A DNA stretch of 64,000 nt from Avibacterium sp. 20-132 (GTDB taxonomy: Bacteria > Pseudomonadota > Gammaproteobacteria > Enterobacterales > Pasteurellaceae): contig NZ_CP091456.1 in assembly GCF_023611925.1 (NCBI RefSeq), positions 1,426,001-1,490,000 on the forward strand. The letters are read 5' to 3'. This document shows positions 53,147 through 56,540 of this stretch, in pieces; the first letter of the stretch is position 1; each line of letters starts with the position of its first letter. The position numbers and the translations under genes were made by a program. Under the pieces are notes generated by a model, which was not told the DNA's origin, did not search any database, and saw only the letters and a list, made by a program, of their open reading frames with translations.

Positions 53147-54424
53147 ATGGCAAAGATTGTGGAATCAAAAACGATTGTCGGATTGGAAGTCGGTACTTCT
53201 AAAGTTGTCGCTGTTGTGGGTGAAGTGTTGCCAGACGGCGTAGTAAATATCTTAGGTGTAGGAAGTTGCCCTTCTAAAGGGATTGATAAAGGCAGCATTA
53301 CTGATCTCAATGCAGTGGTGACCTCTATTCAACGTGCGATTGAGGCAGCCGAATCAGTGGCAGATTGCCAGATTATGAGCGTTACTTTAGCAATTACGGG
53401 CGATCACATCCAAAGTCTGAATGAAAGTGGCTTTGTTCCTATTGCCGAAGGAGAAGTTACGCAAGATGAAATTGATTCCGCAATGCACACTGCTAGCTCA
53501 GTGAGAATGGGCGAAGGGCTTTCCTTATTGCACATTATTCCACAAGAATATGCGGTAGATAAGCAGGTAAATATTAAAGATCCCCTTGGTTTACAAGGTG
53601 TACGTTTAAAAGCGCAAGCGCATTTGATTGCTTGTCACCAAGATTGGCAAAACAACCTTAAAAAAGCCGTAGAGCGTTGTAAATTAAAAGTGGATAAAAT
53701 CGTTTATTCAGGCGTTGCATCAGGTTGCTCTGTGTTAACCGAAGATGAGAAAGATCTTGGTGTTTGCTTAATTGATTTTGGTGCAGGCACAATGGATATT
53801 GTCGTTTACACTAATGGGGCATTACGTTTTAGTAAAGTCATTCCTTATGCAGGAAATCGTGTTACCGATGATATTGCTTATGCTTGTGAAACATCAAGAA
53901 CAGAAGCTGAACGGATCAAAGTGAATTATAGCAGTGCGTGGAATCCCCCTTCTTCACACCCAGAAAAACGGATTGAAGTAGCGGGAATTGGCGGACGAGC
54001 GCCACGCGTGCTAACCAAAGAACAATTATCTGTTGCCACCTCAGCGCGTTATGAAGAATTACTCGGCTTAGTTCGCCAAGAATTAAACCAATTGCAGTAT
54101 GAACTTGAAAGCAAACAAATGAAGTTTGAATTAATTGCTGGTGTTGTGATTACCGGTGGGGGCGCACAAATTGAAGATTTAAAACAATGTGCCACTAAAG
54201 TATTTGGAATGCAAGTACGTGTCGGTAGCCCATTAAATATAACTGGGCTAACGGATTATGTAAATAAACCCCAATATTCTACCGTTGTTGGTTTGTTACA
54301 GTATAATCATAATGATGAAGATGAAAGCCCTATTAATGATCAATATGGCTCAGGAGAAAGCTTTTTAGGCGCTGCTTGGGCTGGGGTGAAAAAAATTATG
54401 AATAAAGTGCGGTCTGAATTTTAA
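53147..54424 (+). CDS. ftsA: cell division protein FtsA
   Basis: 425 residues. Actin-like ATPase that tethers FtsZ to the membrane. [18 protein letters not shown] (phosphate 1), [15 protein letters not shown] (phosphate 2) and [13 protein letters not shown] (adenosine loop) are intact. The C-terminal amphipathic membrane-targeting helix is [13 protein letters not shown]; its last codons overlap an uptake signal sequence. That 3' end is repeated 724 bases downstream, ahead of ftsZ. Confidence 0.97.
54396..54422 (+). repeat. direct repeat copy 1 (ftsA 3' end)
   Basis: 27 bases, identical to 55120-55146 except for one base; the last 22 are exact. It contains the AAGTGCGGT uptake core but the identity extends well beyond it. 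It encodes the last residues of FtsA. Confidence 0.8.
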
Positions 54425-54456
54425 TCAATTTTTATTTAAGCTGAGAGGAAAGAAAA

Positions 54457-55059
54457 GTGGGTGATAAATTATTGATTAGTGTGCTGGGTGTTGGAAGTTA
54501 TGGTACAAAAAAACTCCAGATGATTATGGATAAAATGCAAAAAAATGCTCAAGACGATACGTTCATTAGTTCCCCCCATAGCAATGAGTTTGCTTTTTAT
54601 GCTATAGATAACGATAAAGATGTACTCAATACGAGCAAGGCACAAGATAGCTTGCTGCTAAGTGATGAGTTAAATCAAGAAACATTAGTTGCTCAACAAG
54701 TAGAAGAAAAATTACGCCAAATGGTTGGTAATAGTGATTTGGTTATCTTAGTTTCAGCTGCTGGTGGTAACACATCCTCAATGGTGATTCCTGCGATTGT
54801 AGAGAGTCTTAATGAGATTAAAATCCCATTGGCAGCAGTGGTAGTGAAGCCTTTTGATTTTGAAGGAAGCAAACGTAGTGTAAATGCAGAAATTGCGATC
54901 AGCAAAGTGGAAAAATTAGCTACAACGCTTAAGGTATTAGATAATAATAACTTGATCTCAGTACTAAATCATCAGCCTTTGAATGAGGCATTTGCACAAA
55001 TGGATCGTGAAGCGGTTGAGTTCGTATTGAGTTTTGCTGAAAAACATTTTGTTGCCTAA
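54457..55059 (+). CDS. FtsZ-like GTPase-domain protein lacking canonical nucleotide loops
   Basis: 200 residues, in frame and well formed, between ftsA and ftsZ. GTG start with AGAGGAA eight bases upstream. By eye it aligns with FtsZ from its strand 1 to the start of helix 7: VLGVGSYG (9-16) against [15 protein letters not shown] (47-53) against FYAVNTD, DLVILVSAAGG (94-104) against [11 protein letters not shown], and VVVKPFDFEGSKR (128-140) against [13 protein letters not shown]. The tubulin signature GGGTGTG is replaced by GGNTSSM and the GGGGN loop by SYGTK. The T7 loop and the whole C-terminal domain are missing. So it probably cannot hydrolyse GTP or polymerise alone. It could modulate FtsZ, or be a decaying duplicate, although the reading frame is intact. 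Confidence 0.85.
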   Translation: MGDKLLISVLGVGSYGTKKLQMIMDKMQKNAQDDTFISSPHSNEFAFYAIDNDKDVLNTSKAQDSLLLSDELNQETLVAQQVEEKLRQMVGNSDLVILVSAAGGNTSSMVIPAIVESLNEIKIPLAAVVVKPFDFEGSKRSVNAEIAISKVEKLATTLKVLDNNNLISVLNHQPLNEAFAQMDREAVEFVLSFAEKHFVA

Positions 55060-55119
55060 AATAGAGTGCGGTGAAAAATTTACGATTTTTTGGTTTCTTT
55101 TATTATTTTTTTGGAATTT

Positions 55120-55146
55120 TTATTAATAAAGTGCGGTCTGAATTTT
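55120..55146 (+). repeat. direct repeat copy 2 (upstream of ftsZ)
   Basis: Second copy of the ftsA 3'-end sequence (one mismatch in 27), now non-coding and placed 87 bases ahead of ftsZ. Together with copy 1 it brackets the FtsZ-like gene. Another uptake-like sequence lies at about 55,064-55,072. Confidence 0.8.
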
Positions 55147-55232
55147 GAGAATTTGCATTTTTCATCTACAATAAGAGCAATTTAGGTTTTAATTTTGTGC
55201 CAGCAAAACCCTGGCATTAACGGAGAATAACT

Positions 55233-56540
55233 ATGTTTGAACCAGTGGATTATGATCTTGGTGATATGAACGGCGCACTTATTAAAGTCGTTGGCGTTGG
55301 CGGTGGTGGCGGTAACGCTGTGGATCATATGGTTGCTAATATGATAAAAAACGATATTGGCGGCACATTAGTGGGGGCTGATGAATTAGCTTTCCCAACT
55401 GCAAATGACGAACACGATAGAATTATTTTCTATGCGGTAAATACTGATGCACAAGCCTTGCGTAAAAGCAAAGTACAACAAACCGTTCAAATTGGTGGTT
55501 CAACAACCAAAGGACTGGGAGCAGGTGCTAATCCAAATGTTGGTCGTAAAGCCGCAGAAGATGATCAAGAGGCGATTCGTGCAATGCTTGAAGGGGCGGA
55601 TATGGTATTTATTGCCGCAGGTATGGGCGGTGGTACAGGAACAGGTGCCGCTCCAATTGTTGCGCAAATCGCAAAAGACTTGGGTATCCTTACTGTTGCT
55701 GTAGTAACCAAGCCTTTCGCATTCGAAGGTCCAAAGCGTATGCAATTTGCCGAAATGGGAATTAAAGAGCTTTCTAAACACGTTGATTCTTTGATTATCA
55801 TTCCAAATGAAAAATTATTAAAAGTATTAGGTAAAAACATCAGTTTAGTAAATGCCTTTGCTGCTGCAAATGATATTCTCCGTAATGCAGTAACGGGTAT
55901 TTCCGATATGATTACTTCTCCCGGCTTAATTAACGTGGACTTTGCAGACGTTCGTACCGTAATGTCTGAAATGGGGCGCGCGATGATGGGATCTGGTGTG
56001 GTTGAAGGTGAAGCGGGTGATGGACGTGCAGAGAAAGCTGCACAGGAAGCGGTTGCTAGCCCATTATTGGAAGATGTGGATTTATCTGGGGCAAGAGGCG
56101 TGTTAGTTAATGTCACTGCTGGATTTGATTTAACCTTAGATGAATTTACCATAGTGGGGGATACGATTAAAGCCTTTGCATCAGAAGAGGCAACGGTTGT
56201 GGTAGGAACAACGTTAGTACCAGATATGTCGAATGAAATCCGTGTAACCATTGTCGCAACGGGGATTGGTGATATTGATGCACCAGATATTAAAATTGCA
56301 CCACGTACCGTACCATTAGGTCAGCCAATGCAAAAAGTTAATCAAGAACCATTTGGACAACAGCAAGCAACAGGCTATCAGACGCATAATTCACAAGTGG
56401 GGCAAATGCCAAATCGTCCTGCTGATTTAACACATAGAAATATTTTAGATACGCCAATTACTGATCGTTTAAATTCACTTAAAAGAGAAGAAGGCTTAGT
56501 GAATGCGAACAGTTTTATGCGTAAACCGGAAGATAAATAA
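55233..56540 (+). CDS. ftsZ: cell division GTPase FtsZ
   Basis: 435 residues. Tubulin homologue that forms the Z ring. [13 protein letters not shown] (loop T1, about 21-33), the tubulin signature [11 protein letters not shown] (131-141), [13 protein letters not shown] and the T7 loop [16 protein letters not shown] are intact. An extra segment of about 20 residues (about 41-62, [18 protein letters not shown]) sits between helix 1 and strand 2, as I recall for H. influenzae FtsZ. The C-terminal tail ends [10 protein letters not shown], unlike the usual DIPAFLR peptide. It has a GGAG site. Confidence 0.97.

Follow-up and report, generated by a model that had tools for sequence, protein, structure and literature searches.

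The gene order ftsQ-ftsA-ftsZ is highly conserved among gammaproteobacteria. In Staphylococcus aureus FtsZ filaments, contacts between subunits reportedly pair H6-H7, T5, T3 and H1-H2, in the N-domain of one subunit, with H10, S9, H8 and T7, respectively, of the next, and the filament end that exposes T7 was tentatively assigned as the growing end (PMC8936486). SulA, MciZ and MinC all bind the C-domain (bottom) polymerisation face of FtsZ (PMC11938149). Here we describe, in a window of 64,000 nucleotides (the whole stretch of DNA analysed) from Avibacterium sp. 20-132, a relative of FtsZ encoded between ftsA and ftsZ, which we consider a real, genus-restricted and selected gene product, consisting of the N-domain only, devoid of the GTP motifs and born by local duplication.

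The list of open reading frames bears out the 200-codon gene that an earlier note, made from the sequence alone, had placed between ftsA and ftsZ: ftsA (53147..54424, + strand) is followed by a frame of 200 codons with a GTG start (54457..55059, + strand), and this by a full-length ftsZ (55233..56540, + strand; 435 aa) in which GTP motifs, T7 loop and C-domain are all present. The last codons of ftsA, NKVRSEF-stop at 54401-54424, form the first copy of a repeated ftsA tail. A ribosome-binding region, GAGAGGAAAG (54443..54456, + strand), stands ahead of the GTG start, as the note had said, and its description of the frame as intact agrees with ten relatives, 63-98% identical to the window protein, that span 200 alignment columns with no indel; a frameshifted copy in Avibacterium gallinarum NCTC 11188 departs from this. 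A simple pattern scan of the + strand listed one promoter-like site ahead of ftsZ and none in the stretch from ftsA to the paralogue. The site ahead of ftsZ, TTGAGA-16-TACAAT (55145..55172, + strand), is the likely ftsZ promoter by the scan and by its conservation behind the ftsA tail in other Pasteurellaceae; the scan as such did not exceed chance (10 sites against 10.3 expected from shuffles). Since a promoter-like site is conserved before ftsZ and none was seen 5' of the paralogue, the latter is probably read from upstream transcripts, with its expression tied to that of ftsA.

Profile searches, alignment and a structure model together mark the 200-aa product as an N-domain-only FtsZ paralogue and predicted pseudo-GTPase. 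It matches Pfam Tubulin (PF00091; E 3.3e-20, 73.6 bits against a cut-off of 33) and scores 81.5 bits against NCBIfam ftsZ (TIGR00065), for which 295.2 are required, so that it does not count as an FtsZ equivalog; nor is there a match at E<=1 to Tubulin_2 (PF13809), which we take to cover FtsZl1, and it does not class as FtsZl1 either. Aligned with the neighbouring FtsZ and 21 other FtsZs (24-32% identity to FtsZ), the paralogue tracks the N-domain into helix H7 and ends there, which upholds the likeness claimed up to helix 7. The two nucleotide loops said to be replaced (GGGGN and GGGTGTG) are indeed so: T1 reads GSYGTK where the neighbouring FtsZ has GGGGGN, and T4 reads GGNTSSM in place of GGGTGTG. 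To these we add two losses absent from the earlier note, the deletion of the T3 loop (GLGAGANP) and of the FtsZ N-terminal tail ahead of the first strand. The T5 motif KPF.FE is retained. Neither T7 loop nor C-domain nor C-terminal peptide was found, and PF12327 gave no match at E<=1, in keeping with the truncation first proposed. A shortened form of the H1-S2 insert is present; the insert occurs in 15 of 17 other Pasteurellaceae FtsZ rows and in none of the four rows from outside the family. We read the protein as a Pasteurellaceae FtsZ N-domain without GTP motifs, for which loss of nucleotide binding is predicted.

Structure prediction of the protein alone, which had been suggested as a check, returned the FtsZ N-domain fold when FtsZ rows were in the alignment: AlphaFold2 gave a model in N-domain element order (pLDDT 86.3, pTM 0.85), biased to the FtsZ fold by those rows and of low confidence over residues 31-40 and the ten C-terminal residues. 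With paralogue rows alone (pLDDT 64.6) the same elements appear to about residue 130, the C-terminal third being unreliable. Among the matches listed by Foldseek, 50 of 50 (of 287 at E<=0.001) are FtsZ by title, with TM 0.61-0.77 on the query. Score and predicted fold thus place the protein in the Tubulin/FtsZ GTPase-domain superfamily (PF00091), and the idea of a pseudo-GTPase gains in part, namely in a predicted FtsZ N-domain fold from which the GTP motifs are gone.

A protein search returned 14 relatives at E<=1e-3 out of 319 candidates, and all seven that carry a name are from Avibacterium. The paralogue is present in five of seven Avibacterium genomes and intact in four of them: the window genome, A. 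volantium (G001), A. avium (G003) and A. endocarditidis (G004). The A. volantium protein matches P0007, and the A. avium protein differs from P0013 by two residues. In A. gallinarum NCTC 11188 (G005) it is frameshifted around codon 84, in an A-rich stretch, and intact copies named A. gallinarum exist in other strains (P0005, P0006); two of the seven genomes compared, G002 and G006, are without it. In the remaining 133 of 140 Pasteurellaceae genomes no orthologue-level match stands among the matches listed: the best is at E 1.5e-26 or weaker, the four intact orthologues being at 1e-115 or better, and these best matches are FtsZ itself or other short FtsZ-likes. Orthologues do exist, then, and the expectation that they would extend across Pasteurellaceae failed, the gene being found, over the 140 genomes, in Avibacterium only. 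A viral origin was considered and rejected: no relative is encoded at any of 201 pattern matches in viral contigs, and phage records give no support, with 11 weak matches (<60% identity, E<=0.01), eight in unannotated records and three under FtsZ-annotated genes. A search of the literature on FtsZ in Avibacterium and Pasteurellaceae and on truncated FtsZ paralogues, over titles and the opening lines of abstracts and with subscription journals mostly uncovered, turned up no publication on this gene.

The interval itself records how the gene may have arisen. At 14 outgroup Pasteurellaceae loci, 78-100 nt separate the ftsA stop from ftsZ, and in 13 of these the ftsA product closes with NKVRSEF or something close to it, a conserved TACAAT stretch coming directly behind; G006 has the same layout (gap 81 nt). 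The five paralogue-bearing genomes have gaps of 797-808 nt, ftsA retains its own tail, and directly 5' of ftsZ lies a unit of 71 nt that comprises ftsA tail and promoter region and is 96-99% identical to its counterpart in G006. In the window this scar contains a second ftsA 3' end outside ftsA (AATAAAGTGCGGTCTGAATTTTGA, NKVRSEF-stop; 55125..55148, + strand). Repetition of the ftsA tail and promoter region just 5' of ftsZ supports a local origin, by tandem duplication or insertion at the ftsA tail: a segment running from the ftsA tail through the ftsZ promoter into the 5' part of ftsZ would have been duplicated in the Avibacterium lineage, leaving a copy of half the length of FtsZ between the two genes. 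A 39-row N-domain tree puts the four intact paralogues in one clade (100/100) inside the insert-bearing Pasteurellaceae FtsZ, on a saturated stem of 7.8 changes per column that leaves the sister group unresolved; with such a stem the tree alone is weak, and the argument on origin therefore rests on the scar. Acquisition from a distant FtsZ is not favoured, given the Pasteurellaceae-type H1-S2 insert, the tree position and the scar.

In G002, which has no paralogue, a second ftsA tail is present in a gap of 283 nt; because this scar is still there, G002 has lost the gene. Genome G006 may keep the ancestral layout, never having had the gene, or may have lost it cleanly: by dS at murE, murF, mraY, murD, murG, murC and gyrB it is more distant from A. 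volantium than the window genome is, at rpoB and lpxC it is nearer, and the ftsA tree has a polytomy around it. The sequence AAGTGCGGT, presumably the Pasteurellaceae DNA-uptake core, occurs at 54405-54413 (ftsA tail), at 55064-55072 (with one mismatch, just 3' of the paralogue) and at 55129-55137 (scar); as it flanks the paralogue on both sides, it could have aided the duplication via natural transformation.

As to function, a role in FtsZ assembly, as a home-grown regulator, is likely, and capping is the leading proposed mechanism. The idea of a cap is structurally reasonable, since the half-interface that contacts the T7/C-domain face belongs to the N-domain. We tentatively propose, with somewhat less than even confidence, that the paralogue docks on the T7/C-domain face that FtsZ leaves exposed, so capping or sequestering FtsZ: the folded N-domain would offer its half-interface (T5 loop, H2 aspartate) to that face; without T7 loop, C-domain or nucleotide it could not be extended, and once docked it would stop growth, having no T7 face of its own. 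Weak capping of filaments or sequestration of monomers, in amounts tied to ftsA expression, would then tune Z-ring assembly. The T5 motif and D53 (aligned to D46, in what we take to be the S. aureus numbering) are invariant in ten aligned relatives; the counterpart of S. aureus R143 is kept in two of three haplotypes and changed in A. avium, the N25 position is changed in all paralogues, and the Q48 position in two of the three haplotypes. Against capping, the T3 loop, one of the four published contact regions, is deleted, and two of the long blocks invariant over three haplotypes, MIMDKMQKN.QDD.FI (H1 and the start of the insert) and FVLSF.EKHF.A (the end of the protein), lie mostly outside known contacts; against capping as a needed function stand the frameshift in NCTC 11188, the loss in G002 and an evolution faster than that of ftsA. 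The fuller picture of self-mimicry, in which the duplicated N-half of the cell's own FtsZ serves as a nucleotide-free subunit that plugs the growing filament end and is encoded in the division operon next to its target, is more doubtful still. To our knowledge, the well-studied FtsZ inhibitors are not FtsZ paralogues. A selected, nucleotide-free FtsZ N-domain at this place would provide a natural experiment on filament polarity and end-capping, and an example of a polymer controlled by a shortened version of the subunit it is built from.

The same invariant block over H1 and the start of the Pasteurellaceae insert is a point for a different regulator, a positive or structural modulator that would bind the disordered FtsZ N-terminal tail, a lateral surface or FtsA and stabilise or remodel filaments without capping the T7 face. 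In E. coli, residues 1-10 of FtsZ, its N-terminal tail, reportedly contact the N-domain of the adjacent subunit and serve as an element of disassembly (PMC12137876). A free N-domain without a tail could titrate that tail. We consider such a modulator unlikely; a literature search over titles and the opening lines of abstracts yielded no study of an isolated FtsZ N-domain.

Less probable again is a decoy or sensor for phage-encoded FtsZ inhibitors, which would soak them up or report them to a defence system. Its precedent is T7 Gp0.4, which reportedly sequesters FtsZ in a complex that triggers CapRel (PMC13423816). Adjacency of FtsZ-likes to PD-(D/E)XK nucleases (PADLOC candidate PDC-S26) in two other Pasteurellaceae genera speaks for it, as does the far divergence of A. 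avium ftsW, ftsQ, ftsA and ftsZ from those of A. volantium, not shared by neighbouring mur genes, as might befit targets under attack. The window gene, however, sits in the dcw cluster with no adjoining defence gene recognised (PADLOC reported only DpdF, E 0.037), and SulA, MciZ and MinC bind the C-domain face, whereas the paralogue is without a C-domain.

The divergence between A. avium (G003) and A. volantium (G001) is confined in an uneven way: ftsW, ftsQ, ftsA, the paralogue and ftsZ stand at dS 1.0-2.3, ftsI at 0.71 and ddl at 0.35, and murE, murF, mraY, murD, murG and murC, around and between them, at 0.08-0.21. These division genes look replaced as a set. A divergent ftsZ allele is shared by G002 and G003 (dS 0.05-0.06), the ftsA genes of the two being 0.97 apart.

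Short FtsZ-likes that end in H7 also occur elsewhere in Pasteurellaceae, outside the ftsA-ftsZ interval, and do not look orthologous to the window paralogue; from them it appears that N-domain-only FtsZ proteins arise repeatedly and also get lost, and the capping trick may itself have arisen more than once. At L077:912-2691 (+) a PD-(D/E)XK nuclease (PF14281; PDC-S26) lies directly upstream of a 185-aa N-domain-only FtsZ-like on the same strand, and at L078:913-3051 (-) such a nuclease (PF14281; PDC-S26) lies directly downstream of a 296-aa degenerate FtsZ-like, again on the same strand. Nuclease and FtsZ-like possibly form a defence pair at both loci; a literature search on PDC-S26 found nothing. 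At L076:2603-4412 (-) a 179-aa N-domain-only FtsZ-like adjoins a DUF6892 protein. The genus that includes Actinobacillus arthritidis has a two-gene set, which may encode the two subunits of a split FtsZ-like system: gene 1, of about 262 aa, has an N-terminal extension and the FtsZ N-domain only and keeps GLGGGNGTG, and gene 2 (about 284 aa; four of nine genomes of the genus) is a strongly degenerate FtsZ with a T7-like NIDIQDV, its A. arthritidis form giving no Pfam match above cut-off. G064 and G066 have gene 1 complete (the pair is whole at L142 and L143); in G061 (A. arthritidis) a stop interrupts it, and in G065 just its start is left (broken forms at L140/L141 and L144).

A protein family around L077 was looked for and rejected, as no close relative was found: the other 46 of 47 hits all have PF00091, 27 of them also the C-domain; the remaining 19, of 111-323 aa, lack it and may be either fragments or short paralogues. 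Among these 19 are P0055-P0062, FtsZ-domain proteins of 225-248 aa for which the C-domain gave no match and of which one is named from an archaeal MAG (Methanomethylophilaceae); they may represent a further N-domain-only form, or fragments. A class-wide search with L078 matched 346 of 369 genomes, with open frames of at least 360 aa among the matches listed; plasmid searches gave 45 records for L078 and 39 for L077, all below 60% identity and, among the matches listed, with FtsZ annotation or none.

The gene in the window is under selection. All six pairs of the four intact paralogues have dN/dS (NG86) of 0.128-0.214, with bootstrap 97.5% limits of at most 0.441, none of 1000 bootstraps at or above 1 in any pair and Fisher p of 1.6e-4 to 3e-22, pairs with A. 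avium (G003) being saturated at silent sites. The recent, unsaturated pair A. volantium/A. endocarditidis (dS 0.11, dN/dS 0.18, Fisher p 1.6e-4) places the constraint in the present. All four copies have exactly 200 codons and zero indels; in a neutral simulation 0.3% of copies were still open at 0.39 substitutions per site. The dN/dS check proposed beforehand, run within Avibacterium, therefore came out for purifying selection, and on this ground the copy, after losing the GTP motifs and the N-terminal tail, has been retained as a separate protein. Over all pairs of the seven genomes, dN/dS is 0.012-0.060 for ftsA and 0.011-0.242 for ftsZ (one outlier, G002/G003, at 0.513); in the same pairs the paralogue has 2.5 to 10 times the ftsA value. 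That excess, with the frameshift in NCTC 11188 and the loss in G002, is what a decaying, functionless relic of duplication would have in its favour, but dN/dS well below 1 and the kept frame mark a selected gene and not a simple decaying relic. The decaying duplicate named in the earlier note as the alternative is disfavoured by orthologues and purifying selection, and we regard it as very improbable. The frameshift and the loss do mean that the paralogue is useful but dispensable, not essential. Least probable of all is a translated spacer that sets the coupling of ftsA and ftsZ expression, the protein itself being secondary: the frame does put distance between ftsA and the likely ftsZ promoter, and in other genomes that promoter overlaps or adjoins the end of ftsA, but constraint acts at the amino-acid level and internal blocks are conserved.

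Set beside known systems, the paralogue is like the N-domain of FtsZ (TIGR00065) in its predicted fold, its strand and helix order to H7, its PF00091 match and its Pasteurellaceae H1-S2 insert, and unlike FtsZ in having no T1, T3 or T4 GTP motifs, T7 loop, C-domain, C-terminal peptide or N-terminal tail. With FtsZl1 and FtsZl2 it shares the character of a divergent FtsZ-like domain outside the canonical FtsZ family, whereas those proteins carry further domains or, in FtsZl2, all FtsZ elements (PMC2875224). Chloroplast FtsZ1 and FtsZ2 offer a parallel in that one paralogue reportedly modulates the filament dynamics of the other (PMC8142252, PMC12343686); both, in contrast, are FtsZ proteins in the Z ring, and neither is an N-domain fragment. 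The proposed cap would resemble SulA, MciZ and MinC in acting on the same bottom (C-domain) face of FtsZ (PMC11938149).
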